A stretch of DNA of 64,000 nucleotides from Anaerolineales bacterium (GTDB lineage: Bacteria > Chloroflexota > Anaerolineae > Anaerolineales > Villigracilaceae): the NCBI GenBank assembly GCA_024710905.1, contig JANJTV010000055.1:1-64000 (forward strand). Direction: 5' to 3'. The translations under genes and the position numbers were made by a program. Numbering within the stretch: the first letter of the stretch is position 1; every line of letters starts with the position of its first letter. A model generated the notes under the pieces. It saw only the letters and a list, made by a program, of their open reading frames with translations, was not told the origin of the DNA and ran no database searches. Shown in pieces: positions 29,283 through 35,203 of the stretch.

Positions 29283-31025
29283 ATGGTTTCTGAAAACGAA
29301 GCAATATTGCATGAAAACGGTCAGTGGCTGTATTTCTCCCGCCCGCTGAAAACCCTCACCGCTTACCAGCCCGGGCAGGTACTGCCAACCTTGCAGATGG
29401 TGGAAGGGTTGGTTGAAACACATGGCTGGCACGCGGTCGGTTTCGTTTCTTACGAAGCGGCCCCGGCATTTGACCCGGCCCTGCAAACCCACCCGGCCGG
29501 GGATTTCCCGCTGGTGTATTTTTCACTATACGATAATCCCCGCGTAATCTCCCTGCCCGCCCCATCTCTGGCGGTTGAGCCAATCCACTGGCAGCCCGAC
29601 ACGACACAAACAACCTACCAGCAGGCCATTCGCACCATCAAAGCCGAGATCGCCGCAGGCAACACCTACCAGGTCAATTACACCCTGCGCCTGCGCACCC
29701 AGGACCTGCACGATCCCTGGCAGGCTTTCCTGCGGCTGGCACAAGCCCAGCAGGCTGGGCATGAAGCCTACCTTGATATTGGTCGCTGGGTGATTGCCTG
29801 TGCCTCCCCGGAACTTTTCTTTAACCTGGACAAGGAAACGATTACCTGCCGCCCGATGAAAGGCACCGTCCAACGCGGGCTGACCCTGGAGCAAGACCGC
29901 TCACAGGCGAACTGGCTGCACCACTCGGAAAAAAACCGCGCAGAAAACGTGATGATCGTGGATATGATTCGCAACGACCTGGGCCGCTTCGCCGAAACTG
30001 GCTCAGTACAAACGCCGCATCTGTTTACCACCGAGCGCTACCCCACCCTGTGGCAAATGACCTCCACCGTCACTGCCCGCAGCCAGGCCAGACTGGCCGA
30101 AATGTTCAGCCACCTGTTCCCCTGCGCATCCATCACCGGCGCGCCCAAAGTCAGCACGATGAAAATCATCCGTCGGCTCGAAACCTCCCCGCGCCGAATC
30201 TACACCGGCAGCATCGGCCACATTGCGCCGGGCAGGCAGGCCGTTTTCAACGTTGCCATCCGCACCGTGCTGCACGACCGGCAGGACGGCAAATCGGAAT
30301 ACGGTGCGGGCGGCGGCATCGTCTGGGATTCCACCATCACGGGCGAATACGAAGAAGCCTTGCTCAAAGCCCGGGTGCTTTCACGCCTGCCCCAACCGCC
30401 CTTCCAGATCTTCGAAACCCTGCTCTGGGAACCCGGCACTGGATATTTTTTACTCGAAAAGCATCTGCAACGATTAATGGATTCTGCTGAGTATTTTGGG
30501 TTTCCCATCTCACGAACAAGCGCCGAAGAAGAACTCTCTCACCTCGCAGCGAATTTCGGCGGGATCCCCCAGCGCACGCGCCTGACCCTCGCAGCGGATG
30601 GCAGGCTGGCGACTGAGTCCGCCCCACTGGGAACAGCCAACAAGCCAGTGCTGGCCGGGCTGGCAAAATCAGCCGTTTCATCAACAGATATATCCCTCCA
30701 TCACAAAACCAGCCAGCGCGATGTGTACACGCAAATCTTGCAGGAACTGCCGAATGCTGAAGATGTCATCCTGATCAATGAGCGCGGCGAACTGACCGAG
30801 TTCACCATTGGGAATCTGGTGCTCGAACTGGACAGGAAAAAGGTTACGCCTCCTGTCAGCAGCGGCCTGCTGGGTGGCGTCTTCCGCGCCCACCTGCTGG
30901 AAAACAACGAAATCACCGAGCAGGTCTTAACGACAGAAGACCTGCGGCAGGCCACAAACATCTTTCGGATTAATTCCGTGCGCCGCTGGCAGGCCGTAAA
31001 ACTGGTGATCGATGAAAAGACTTAA
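29283..31025 (+). CDS. pabB: Fused aminodeoxychorismate synthase component I / aminodeoxychorismate lyase
   Basis: 580 residues in two domains. Residues ~1-370 are a chorismate-binding domain: TYQVNYTLRLRT, PELFFNLDKETITCRPMKGT, EKNRAENVMIVDMIRNDLGR, FPCASITGAPKVSTMKII and YTGSIGHIAPGRQAVFNVAIRT. Residues ~385-580 form a class IV PLP aminotransferase-like lyase domain (FETLLWEPGTGYFLLEKHLQRL, DVILINERGELTEFTIGNLVLEL, PPVSSGLLGGVFR). Together with a glutamine amidotransferase this makes p-aminobenzoate for folate. The fusion is known in several phyla. Translation starts 14 nt from the divergent VanZ gene, with no good ribosome site. Confidence 0.92.
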   Translation: MVSENEAILHENGQWLYFSRPLKTLTAYQPGQVLPTLQMVEGLVETHGWHAVGFVSYEAAPAFDPALQTHPAGDFPLVYFSLYDNPRVISLPAPSLAVEPIHWQPDTTQTTYQQAIRTIKAEIAAGNTYQVNYTLRLRTQDLHDPWQAFLRLAQAQQAGHEAYLDIGRWVIACASPELFFNLDKETITCRPMKGTVQRGLTLEQDRSQANWLHHSEKNRAENVMIVDMIRNDLGRFAETGSVQTPHLFTTERYPTLWQMTSTVTARSQARLAEMFSHLFPCASITGAPKVSTMKIIRRLETSPRRIYTGSIGHIAPGRQAVFNVAIRTVLHDRQDGKSEYGAGGGIVWDSTITGEYEEALLKARVLSRLPQPPFQIFETLLWEPGTGYFLLEKHLQRLMDSAEYFGFPISRTSAEEELSHLAANFGGIPQRTRLTLAADGRLATESAPLGTANKPVLAGLAKSAVSSTDISLHHKTSQRDVYTQILQELPNAEDVILINERGELTEFTIGNLVLELDRKKVTPPVSSGLLGGVFRAHLLENNEITEQVLTTEDLRQATNIFRINSVRRWQAVKLVIDEKT

Positions 31026-31945
31026 CCGGTTCGCAAACGCTTCTGGATCTCGCTCCTAGACTCCCTGACAAACCCCCAAAACTCGGCATGGGCGCGCGGG
31101 AGAGTCTTGTTGCGATGATGGATCAGGTAAATATTGCGATGCAGGCTCATGCCCAGGGTTTCCACCTCCACCACCCGACCCAGCGCCAGCCCGCGCGAGG
31201 CTGCCAGTCGTGAGATAAAAGCCACGCCAAGCCCTTCTTCCACGGCCATTTCAATCGCTTCGGCGTTACCGAGCACCATGCTGATGTTCAGCATATCCAG
31301 ATGGATGTCATGCTGGTGCAGGCCTTCCATAAGCACTTCGCGGGTACCAGCTGATTCTTCACGCAGGATGAGTGGTTCATCGAGCAAATCATCCGGGTGA
31401 ACCTGGCGAAACTTTGCCCAGGGATGATCAGCAGGCACAATCAGAATGACCGTATCCTTATAGAAGCTTTGATATTCCAGATCCGGATTGTCAATTGCCT
31501 TACTCGATACCCCCAGGGCAAGATCACCGTGCATAAGTTTTTCGAAGACCGTATGCCGGCTGGTTACATCGACATTTACCCGTACATGTGGGTATTTTTT
31601 CCTGAACTGGGCAATCAGCCCGGGCAGGATGTACTTCCCCGAAGTAGTGGAACAGCCAATGGTCATCTCGCCGACCACTTCATCGTGCAACGATATCATG
31701 GTCTGCTCCAGCCGGTGTGCCGAGGTCAAAAGCTCCCGGGCCATGGGCAGCAAGGCAAATCCGTGCTCCGTCAAGCGTACGGATTTGCCTGTACGCGCAA
31801 ATAATTTCACACCCAACTGACGTTCGAGCGCCTGGATTGCCTGGCTGACAGCAGGCTGCGAAATGTGCCCAATACGGCCCGCCTGGCTAAAACTCCCCTG
31901 CTCGGCAACCGTGACAAAAAGGTGAAGCGCGTTCAAGTCCAGCAT
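31022..31945 (-). CDS. LysR-family transcriptional regulator
   Basis: 307 residues: winged helix-turn-helix at 1-60 (MLDLNALHLFVTVAEQGSFS, ISQPAVSQAIQALERQLGVKLF) and a periplasmic-binding-protein-like effector domain. VGEMTIGCSTTSGKYILPGL resembles CysB/CbbR-like members that respond to sulfur or carbon metabolites. It lies directly downstream of the rhodanese lipoprotein gene on the same strand but after a terminator, and overlaps the end of pabB by 4 nt tail to tail. It could control the rhodanese-cytochrome genes, though position alone does not show this. Confidence 0.9.
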   Translation of the reverse strand: MLDLNALHLFVTVAEQGSFSQAGRIGHISQPAVSQAIQALERQLGVKLFARTGKSVRLTEHGFALLPMARELLTSAHRLEQTMISLHDEVVGEMTIGCSTTSGKYILPGLIAQFRKKYPHVRVNVDVTSRHTVFEKLMHGDLALGVSSKAIDNPDLEYQSFYKDTVILIVPADHPWAKFRQVHPDDLLDEPLILREESAGTREVLMEGLHQHDIHLDMLNISMVLGNAEAIEMAVEEGLGVAFISRLAASRGLALGRVVEVETLGMSLHRNIYLIHHRNKTLPRAHAEFWGFVRESRSEIQKRLRTG

Positions 31946-32037: not shown

Positions 32038-33771
32038 TTATTTGACAACAGGCAGTTCAGCAGCGATCCAGGCATTCATGCCGCCATTCAGGTTGCGAAC
32101 ATTGGTATATCCCAGGGCGTTCAGGTACATCTGCACCATCGCACCGCGATGACCGGAACCGCAAATCACAACGATCGGTGCGGCTTTGTCGGCGGGCAGT
32201 TGAGCCAGGTTGGCAGGGACGTCATTCACGGGAACAAGGATGGCACCATCGATATGGCCTTTCTCATCCCATTCCGCCTGTGAACGCACATCCAATAGGA
32301 AGGACATCGTGCCGCTGGCGATCTCAGTGTTGAGGTCCGGGGCTTTGACAGAACCAAACCCGGCTTCCGGCAGGTTCAACAGGTAGGCATCCAGGTAGGC
32401 CAGGCGGGTGGCATCCACTTCGGGAGCCGTGCCAGCCACCGGGGCGGCGATCGGGTCGGTCACGAGGGGCAGTTCAGCCCCCTTCCAGCCATTGATACCA
32501 CCACCCAGGTTGACCACATCCGTATACCCAAGCAGGCGCAGGGCCATCATCCCCAGGCCGCCGCGATGACCGGAAGCGCAGGTGATGATAATCTTCTGGT
32601 CCTTGGCGGGCAGTTTATCCAGGTTCTGCAGCAGGGTGCGGATCGGGATATTAATCGAACCGGCAATATAGCCTGTTTCGATTTCGGCGGGCTCACGAAC
32701 ATCGACGATGAAAACAGGCGCTTCAGTGAGCATTTCGTTCAACTTGGCCGAGCTGACCGAATAGTAACCGGCATCTGCGGGCAGGTTGGCGAGAAAATCC
32801 CCCATCTCAACGGGCCAGTTCACCCAACCGACCACGGGCAGGTTGGCATTCTTCCAGGCATTCAACCCGCCGTTCAGGTTGATGACATCGGTGTAGCCCA
32901 ACAGGCGCAGGGCCATCATGGCCATTCCGCCGCGATGACCGGAGGCGCAATAAACCAGGATGGAGGCATCTTTGTCAGCGGGGAGCTGGTCAAGCGTATT
33001 CAGGAAATCAGCGAACGGCAGTAAAACAGCGCCTTCAATATAGCCGTCCTTGTCCCATTCAGCCTGTGAGCGGACATCCACAATAAAGGGATCCTTTTCG
33101 GCAAGGTATTCAGTCACCTTGTCTGCCTTGACGGTATAAAAACCAGCATCAGCGGGCAGGTTGGCCAGGAAATCATTCAGGCTGTTGAATAGCTGCTCAT
33201 CTTCCACAATCGGGGTGCTGATGGAGGCCGCAGCTTCAGGCATACTGCCGGTTTCAAGGGGCAGGCCAGCCTTCACCCAAGCACCGGTCCCGCCGCCCAG
33301 GTTAATCACATTGGTATAACCCAGCATCCGCAGGGCCATCATAGCCATACCACCACGGTGACCGGAAGCGCAATAGATCACGATCTGATCATCCAGGCCA
33401 GGGAGCTTATCCAGGTTCTGGAGCAGTTCGCGCACAGGGATATGCACCGCCCCTGCAATGTAACCATTGGCTTCCAGTTCGGCAGCTTCGCGGACATCCA
33501 CCAGGAAAATCGGGGCTTCGGCCAGGGCTTCATTCAGCTTGGCCGCGCTGATGGACCCGTATGCTTGATCGGGTGGAACAGAAGCCCAGAAACCGGCAAA
33601 CAGGCTGGGCCAATCCGGTGTGGAGGGTTCCACCACCGGGGCTTCGCTGGAAGCAGGTGCTTCCTCAACAACTGGCGCGGCGGTTTCTTCCACTGCGGCG
33701 GGGCCACAAGCGCCCAGCAGCAAGCTGAGTACCAGCGCGAGAGCAAGCAGGAAATGCATTTTTTTGTTCAT
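32038..33771 (-). CDS. Exported lipoprotein with four tandem rhodanese domains
   Basis: 577 residues. A lipoprotein signal peptide ends at C22 (LLLGAC), then a ~30-residue Ala/Glu/Pro linker. Four rhodanese-homology domains follow, each with a VDVR strand and an active-site loop CxSGHRG: C134, C275, C398 and C537. The first three loops read CASGHRGG and the fourth CGSGHRGA. Rhodaneses carry persulfide sulfur on this cysteine, so the protein could bind or pass several sulfane sulfurs at the cell surface. It starts 28 nt after the multiheme cytochrome gene, with AAGGAGTGAACG before its ATG, and almost certainly shares its transcript. Single-domain or tandem-two rhodaneses are usual; four is uncommon. 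Confidence 0.9.
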   Translation of the reverse strand: MNKKMHFLLALALVLSLLLGACGPAAVEETAAPVVEEAPASSEAPVVEPSTPDWPSLFAGFWASVPPDQAYGSISAAKLNEALAEAPIFLVDVREAAELEANGYIAGAVHIPVRELLQNLDKLPGLDDQIVIYCASGHRGGMAMMALRMLGYTNVINLGGGTGAWVKAGLPLETGSMPEAAASISTPIVEDEQLFNSLNDFLANLPADAGFYTVKADKVTEYLAEKDPFIVDVRSQAEWDKDGYIEGAVLLPFADFLNTLDQLPADKDASILVYCASGHRGGMAMMALRLLGYTDVINLNGGLNAWKNANLPVVGWVNWPVEMGDFLANLPADAGYYSVSSAKLNEMLTEAPVFIVDVREPAEIETGYIAGSINIPIRTLLQNLDKLPAKDQKIIITCASGHRGGLGMMALRLLGYTDVVNLGGGINGWKGAELPLVTDPIAAPVAGTAPEVDATRLAYLDAYLLNLPEAGFGSVKAPDLNTEIASGTMSFLLDVRSQAEWDEKGHIDGAILVPVNDVPANLAQLPADKAAPIVVICGSGHRGAMVQMYLNALGYTNVRNLNGGMNAWIAAELPVVK

Positions 33772-33799: not shown

Positions 33800-35203
33800 T
33801 TATGGATTTCCATAAACAGGTGGAATATTGGGTACGATCACAGGACCATTGGCCTGAAGTTCCTCCGGTTTGACCTTATCGGCCGTCAGGAAAAGTTCCG
33901 CATTCCCATGACAGGCATTGCAGGAAGCTGTCTGGGGGGTATTGCGCTGGATATTATGCGGGGTTGCATACGCCCAGGTGGGCAGCAGGCTGAAATTGGG
34001 CAGTAGCTCTTCTCCGTAGTACTGATAAGAGGTTGGCGAAACAGGCACATGGCGAACAACAACATACTCGTAAGGCCGGTGGTAGTTCTGGTTGGGATTA
34101 CGTCCGATGAAAAATCCCATATAGCTCGCTTCGGTCTCAAAGAACGGGTTGCCGGAGGTTTCGCTAATGGCCACATGGCAGCCATCACAACTGGTGTATT
34201 GCACACTATGGCAAACCTGGCAGGACAGCTTATCCCCGTGCAGGGTATGATAGGAAATTGTGTCCTCCGGTTTACCAACCTGCTCATGACAACTTTCGCA
34301 TGACGGAACCTGGGCGCCGGAATACCGGTTGGTCGATTGGAAGGCCGCCTGACTGGTGTCGTGACACTCTTTGCAAGCCGCAGTCGAGTCATGCATATCG
34401 GCGCCGGTGTGGCAGGTTACACAATTCATACGGCCAACCCGGAAGTGCACATCACCGGGGAATCCTTCGTTTTTGCCGAGATATTCATTTCCGACCCGGC
34501 TGCCATGACAGGCCGTACAGTTGCGCGTCATGGACGGGGTCTTGTTGACAACATGCCCGGAGATAAAGCCGCCGCCCACCGAACCTGGCTGGCTGATGTG
34601 ACAGTCGCCGCATGAGGTATGGCAGGACGCACAATGGTTGTCAAACATCTCTTCCAGCGCCGGGTGGTTTTCAGGCACACTTCGGGCATCCAATGCATCC
34701 CAGTAACCACCCAGGGAAGCATGCAGGCTGTCCTCAAAATGCTCGGTAACATTCATGTGGCAGGTCGTGCAGGAATTGTCCGGCCCGCTGCTGGGATCCG
34801 CGATCATATTTGCATGGGCAGTTTCCATATCCGCAGACTGGGTGCCGCCATGGCAGACAACGCATTGAATCTGGCCGTGCACCGTGGCTGAGAATTCCTC
34901 ACCCGTGATAAATACTTTCTCCCATGGCTCCAACGGAGCCACATCGCCCCCTCAGCCAACACCTTTTGATTCGGCTTCGTGGGCCACTTCGGGTACGGCC
35001 AGCAATGTCAATTTTTCCTGATCAGTATGGCAGGCCAGGCACTCATCCACATATTTTGGTGAGGCCGTTGGCGCCGCTGTTGGCGTATCGGGCACATCCG
35101 TCGGCTCAACAGGTGCAGGGGTCTCAGGGATTGCAGCGGGAGCGCATGCCCCAAGGATGAAACTGACCAACAACAGGAAATGCAGCAATCTCGCAAGTTT
35201 CAT
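33800..35203 (-). CDS. Dodecaheme c-type cytochrome lipoprotein with in-frame TGA at codon 84 (candidate selenoprotein)
   Basis: Read through the TGA, one frame gives 467 residues. Residues 1-20 are a lipoprotein signal peptide ending ILGAC, then a Thr/Pro linker and the first heme motif CLACH. Codon 84 is TGA (34954-34952), in the context GVG-stop-GGDVAPLEPWEK. The following 383 codons hold eleven more CxxCH motifs: CVVCH, CTTCH, CASCH, CGDCH, CTACH, CVTCH, CKECH, CESCH, CQVCH, CDGCH and CNACH. A separate product starting at the GTG at 34942 would lack a signal peptide, yet c-type hemes are attached outside the membrane. So readthrough, probably as selenocysteine, is favoured over two genes; a nonsense mutation or read error remains possible. 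Electron donor and acceptor unknown. The tetra-rhodanese gene follows. Confidence 0.75.
34923..34951 (-). promoter_or_regulatory. SECIS-like stem-loop directly after the in-frame TGA
   Basis: After the TGA (34954-34952) come 17 nt, then an apical loop GTT (34934-34932). The stem TGGCTCC / GGAGCCA (34941-34925) is seven perfect pairs, extended by two G-U pairs to 34943 and 34923. Bacterial SECIS elements place a loop with an early G, often followed by U, about 16-37 nt after the UGA; E. coli fdhF is about 17-18. This hairpin meets those points by eye. Alternatively GAGGGG upstream of the GTG at 34942 could serve re-initiation. Confidence 0.6.

Follow-up and report, generated by a model that had tools for sequence, protein, structure and literature searches.

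A probable selenocysteine-containing multihaem cytochrome family accompanied by rhodanese genes in Anaerolineae

Known selenocysteine-containing and multihaem cytochromes

Three families with haem or CXXCH motifs appear in the table of prokaryotic selenoproteins of a 2026 review: ExtKL, GSU2204 and octahaem tetrathionate reductase. ExtKL (GSU2937-GSU2936; NF040886), found in Geobacteraceae, is a c-type cytochrome with several haems, in whose gene an in-frame TGA is taken as selenocysteine (Sec), a reading predicted from conservation of the TGA, and its five haems all lie N-terminal to the Sec (PMC1914089). In Geobacter, this Sec cytochrome occurs together with the rhodanese ExtH in a selenite/tellurite cluster (PMC5877670). 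The GSU2204 family (NF041027) combines Sec and CXXCH in one protein, according to the same review table, and is a beta-barrel of the MtrB/PioB type. The octahaem tetrathionate reductases (TIGR04315; 1sp3) are multihaem enzymes of sulfur chemistry, and one member of this family is annotated in GenBank as containing Sec (2026 review).

The window analysed here, a stretch of 64,000 nucleotides from an Anaerolineales genome, carries a gene for a multihaem c-type cytochrome which, like that for ExtKL, is interrupted by an in-frame TGA (Table 1). Unlike ExtKL, the window cytochrome has one haem before the Sec position and ten or more (eleven CxxCH) after it. It showed no match to the models of ExtKL, GSU2204 (NF041027) or octahaem tetrathionate reductase at E values up to 10, and no NCBIfam model scored above its cut-off. 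Its best NCBIfam match is to the DmsE-family decahaem cytochromes (TIGR03508, E 5.5e-10), which are not listed as Sec proteins, and the score of 39 bits lies far below that family's cut-off of 192. When the ExtKL model NF040886 was applied to the whole host genome, it gave weak matches alone, on another contig.

The octahaem tetrathionate reductases were compared through their model and through structure. Against 77 members of the cytochrome family described here, TIGR04315 gave weak matches to five (best E 5e-7) and none to the window protein. The AlphaFold model (from 77 sequences; mean pLDDT 83.9, pTM 0.79) has 1sp3 as its best structural match in VIA-align (Z 8.7 over 259 residues, with the next rows at 3.3–3.9). 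However, the tetrathionate reductase has eight haems as against eleven or twelve in the window protein, and the Sec (model residue 38) lies in the N-terminal part, outside the range aligned to 1sp3. A Foldseek search with the cytochrome model returned no match at E ≤ 0.001. A true TIGR04315 gene (539 bits) is present elsewhere in the host genome (L184, G000 contig C82) and contains no TGA.

Structure of the gene

The cytochrome is encoded by a single frame whose sole interruption is the TGA, flanked by GVG and GGD. Upstream of it, the frame (35203-34952) encodes 83 amino acids with an LGAC lipobox; downstream, the frame continues in the same phase. The initial annotation had described this arrangement, with a lipoprotein signal, one CxxCH motif ahead of the TGA and eleven beyond it, and no export signal in the downstream part, and its coordinates and counts are right. 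What look like two annotated frames would thus constitute one gene, encoding one membrane-anchored, extracytoplasmic multihaem c-type cytochrome; the gene structure can be read from the sequence, and the anchoring outside the cytoplasmic membrane would follow from the signal.

Table 1. Features of the cytochrome locus in the window
Feature	Position	Strand	Details
Predicted Sec-containing 12-CxxCH c-type cytochrome lipoprotein gene	33800..35203	(-)	467 aa with Sec at the TGA; range includes the stop codon
TGA codon, residue 84 in the Sec reading	34952..34954	(-)	TGA in 136/145 homologues at this column
Lipoprotein signal peptide to Cys20 (FILGAC)	35144..35203	(-)	From sequence
Haem-binding motif 1, CLACH	35027..35041	(-)	Sole CxxCH upstream of the Sec codon
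Rest of frame, eleven more CxxCH, without export signal of its own	33800..34951	(-)	
Candidate SECIS hairpin within the coding sequence	34924..34942	(-)	GTGGCTCC-GTT-GGAGCCAT, 8 bp stem
Four-domain rhodanese lipoprotein, directly downstream	32038..33771	(-)	PF00581 x4, E 5e-84; NF041203 above cut-off
LysR-type regulator	31022..31945	(-)	NF040786 "selenium metabolism-associated", 260.9 bits vs cut-off 250

The CLACH motif of the first haem is invariant in both alignments of relatives (A1 and A2). Eleven CxxCH motifs and eleven further histidines are conserved among the relatives, which would suffice for ligation of the core haems without Sec. Therefore, the Sec is probably not needed as a haem ligand and would be free for chemistry.

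Conservation of the TGA codon

Relatives of the cytochrome are found in 66 of the 298 genomes of the class, and when named genomes were scanned with a profile, 80 loci emerged, all from Chloroflexota by their record titles. Two isolates, Thermanaerothrix daxensis GNS-1 and Bellilinea caldifistulae GOMI-1, carry a TGA copy, and no relatives were found in plasmids or viral contigs. When 146 copies were aligned jointly, the Sec column held TGA in 136, a sense codon in nine and a gap in one; the resulting 145 aligned codons represent copies and not independent species, since the two collections overlap (the Bellilinea contig, for example, is in both). The protein is conserved on both sides of the TGA as S.G.G-U-[GA]G...PLE.W, that is, with G-x-G before the Sec column and [GA]-G and PLE-x-W after it.

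The nine sense copies (L051, L052, L055, L056, L057, L058, L110, L140 and L159) have TGG three times, TTT and GTG twice each, and TTG and CAC once, which correspond to Trp, Phe, Val, Leu and His. Cysteine was not found at this column among the 145 aligned codons of the Anaerolineae and Chloroflexota copies. Homologues with cysteine are usual for a selenoprotein, although they are not essential. The suggestion in the initial annotation that Sec stands in place of Cys is thus not borne out by the family. Function may possibly have changed in the sense-codon copies after loss of the Sec. The genome of L057 has two nearby copies, one with TGA and the other longer, with TTT at the Sec column; the open segment of the longer copy has about 21 CxxCH.

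Selenocysteine machinery in the host genome

The host genome encodes SelA (E 1e-126), SelB (E 5e-105) and SelD (E 4e-107), and tRNA-Sec was detected in it by both Rfam and ARAGORN. All four genes named in the initial annotation as a check on the Sec reading (selA, selB, selC and selD, selC being tRNA-Sec) are therefore present. The host selD (L018, G000 contig C44) also encodes a selenoprotein: its UxxK motif contains an in-frame TGA, and a hairpin with a GUA loop follows that TGA.

Among genomes that carry a TGA copy, 56 of 58 have SelA, and the remaining two (G199 and G277) have tRNA-Sec. Because SelA occurs in 258 of the 298 genomes of the class, this co-occurrence is weak evidence. Loss of the Sec machinery was considered as the cause of the sense codons and rejected, as the sense-codon hosts that were checked keep tRNA-Sec.

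The SECIS hairpin

Bacterial SECIS elements have been described by a set of rules, in which the loop has 3–9 nt with a G in its first two positions, the stem has 4–16 bp, the distance from the UGA is 16–37 nt and the minimum free energy is at most -7.5 kcal/mol (PMC13188914). The hairpin that follows the TGA in the window lies within all of these limits: its apical loop is a 3-nt GUU (34934-34932), its stem has 8 bp, the spacing from UGA to loop is 17 nt and its energy is -12.9 kcal/mol. It occupies nucleotides 13-31 counted from the T of the TGA, and nearly all TGA copies have it, with the loop GUU; in three of them (L041, L045 and L068) the register is imperfect. Folding from the UGA onward yields this hairpin. 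When 61 nt of the window sequence were folded alone, another structure was preferred (z -0.82), and no SECIS match came from scanning the region with Rfam.

Synonymous codon use was compared across the 121 conserved columns whose codons are degenerate. Variation is lowest at three hairpin codons, +6 (CCG), +7 (TTG) and +8 (GAG), for which the ratio of codon entropy to expectation is 0.00, 0.05 and 0.11, while the next lowest value is 0.40 and the median 0.95. In addition, 87 copies have G-C at base pair 16/28 and 47 have C-G, and residues +5 and +9 swap jointly with the pair (A..P or P..A/V/G). On the tree this pair has switched three times, each time with compensation, which is too few for significance. 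Together, the freezing of codons and the compensated switches indicate that selection acts on the RNA hairpin.

In most sense-codon copies the hairpin is lost or damaged (L051, L055, L056, L057, L058 and L159). L052, which has TGG and is close to the TGA copies L053 and L071, keeps it intact.

Taken together, the TGA in 136 of 145 copies, the sel genes and a hairpin under codon-level selection at the right distance uphold the reading of the TGA as Sec that the initial annotation had put forward, and the UGA in the cytochrome gene is very probably recoded as selenocysteine.

Neighbouring genes

In the window, the cytochrome gene is followed by the gene for a tandem-rhodanese lipoprotein, with an active-site cysteine in every one of its four domains, and then by the LysR regulator. 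The locus resembles the ExtKL cluster, with its rhodanese-like ExtH, in this pairing, which extends to the family at large: a rhodanese gene adjoins 126 of 126 decidable TGA copies, that is, those with enough flank, lying downstream in 95 and upstream in 31. The upstream rhodanese genes that were inspected encode tandem-domain proteins on the same strand. A downstream-only scan had suggested 33 TGA copies without a rhodanese; this count was rejected, as many of these carry the rhodanese upstream. For one TGA copy, L113, the scan for active-site motifs downstream was empty and the similarity search counts an adjacent rhodanese, so that its partner is possibly degenerate.

Of seven decidable sense copies, five show no rhodanese within roughly 4 kb, and the other two only weak matches (36 and 61 bits). 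The difference in rhodanese presence between TGA and sense copies is marked when copies are counted (Fisher p 6.5e-8), and phylogenetically independent pairs give 5:0, with p 0.0625 on few independent events. Since all decidable TGA copies have the rhodanese and sense copies mostly lack it, Sec and rhodanese appear to be kept and lost jointly, with independent losses being few.

Upstream of the gene in many relatives, and on the other strand, lies a cytochrome with eight or nine haems (flanks of L094, L162 and L148). The upstream flank of L094 also has an HmcB-like ferredoxin and that of L162 an NrfD/QrcD-type membrane protein. This upstream group could form a quinone link.

Alternative explanations

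Two alternatives accept the Sec and differ over what the protein does. In the first, the protein mainly wires electrons, as in extracellular electron transfer, and the Sec tunes or protects one haem. The density of haems and a weak resemblance to decahaem cytochromes of the DmsE and MtrC types are in keeping with such a role, which nevertheless is rather unlikely given the steady rhodanese partner, absent or weakly matched in sense copies, and given that the best structural neighbour is an octahaem tetrathionate reductase, albeit with the Sec outside the aligned part. In the second, the Sec cytochrome and rhodanese serve to reduce selenite or tellurite, the role that has been put forward for the Geobacter ext cluster. 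Both systems pair a Sec cytochrome with a rhodanese, and a selenium-linked LysR regulator is found here; however, the window and Geobacter cytochromes are not one family, and selenite and tellurite are one of several possible chalcogen substrates, which leaves this second alternative rather improbable.

The remaining alternatives deny the Sec itself. If the UGA were a true stop followed by a restart at a GTG, the locus would yield two products, a short lipoprotein with one haem and a distinct protein with eleven. The window does have a GTG at 34942, preceded by a purine-rich stretch, and the downstream reading frame is open. However, this start is unconserved, being replaced by GTC, GTA, CTG, CTA, TTA or CCG in part of the TGA copies, whereas the codons from the TGA to the GTG position are conserved as protein. 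Moreover, the downstream product would lack the export signal required for haem attachment, and selection freezes the hairpin codons and not a start site. A restart is accordingly very unlikely.

A selenium-free reading, in which a near-cognate tRNA inserts tryptophan or some other standard amino acid at the UGA, would agree with the TGG found in three of the nine sense copies. Yet a single transition turns TGA into TGG, and the remaining sense copies encode Phe, Val, Leu and His; a selected hairpin that conforms to all the bSECIS rules stands at the right distance from the UGA, all four Sec genes are in the genome and the selenium-linked LysR adjoins, so that this reading is extremely improbable. 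A sequencing error or pseudogene, which the fragmented assembly (154 contigs, 6.8% contamination) might suggest, has a negligible chance of being correct and is refuted for the family, since 136 copies drawn from numerous assemblies and from two isolates share the TGA and the protein flanking it is conserved.

Proposed mechanism

The best explanation is therefore one Sec cytochrome, in which UGA 84 is decoded by way of SelB, tRNA-Sec and the hairpin, and which works with the rhodanese lipoprotein; on the genomic evidence this combined reading is highly probable. SelB and tRNA-Sec would decode UGA 84 as selenocysteine, directed by the hairpin just 3′ of the UGA, and the cytochrome would act jointly with the neighbouring tandem-rhodanese lipoprotein. 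The rhodanese would offer a chalcogen, either sulfane sulfur or another one such as selenium, in the form of a cysteine persulfide, and the Sec selenolate would accept it as a selenosulfide. The haem chain would give or take electrons, and the pair would reduce (or oxidise) a chalcogen compound outside the cytoplasm.

This chemistry, with a chalcogen moving between rhodanese Cys and Sec and electrons passing through the haems, is put forward tentatively, at somewhat less than an even chance. By analogy, Geobacter ExtKL/ExtH is the nearest functional counterpart proposed for a Sec cytochrome and rhodanese pair. The broader proposal is slightly more speculative: an unreported selenoprotein family without Cys homologues and a tandem-rhodanese lipoprotein may together make up a respiratory module of two proteins in Anaerolineae. 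Within it, Sec selenolate and rhodanese persulfide would exchange sulfane sulfur or another chalcogen and the haems would carry the electrons.

Significance

Sec-bearing multihaem cytochromes are already known as a class, and the family described here is a new one within that class. No published description of it was found in the open-access literature, and by model comparison it is absent from the 2026 review table of prokaryotic selenoproteins. The authors of deep-Sep state that their method may filter out candidates without Cys homologues (PMC12013277). With no Cys homologue found among its copies, the present family may have been missed by Cys-based surveys, and this absence could explain why it has escaped notice. 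Surveys that rely on Sec/Cys pairs would throw it out, as no Cys relative was found, and standard annotation would split the gene in two, leaving a cytochrome apparently without export.

Members occur widely in Anaerolineae, and the family points to a novel selenium-dependent electron-transfer reaction. Cultured hosts exist in Thermanaerothrix daxensis and Bellilinea caldifistulae, and the family is thus open to testing.
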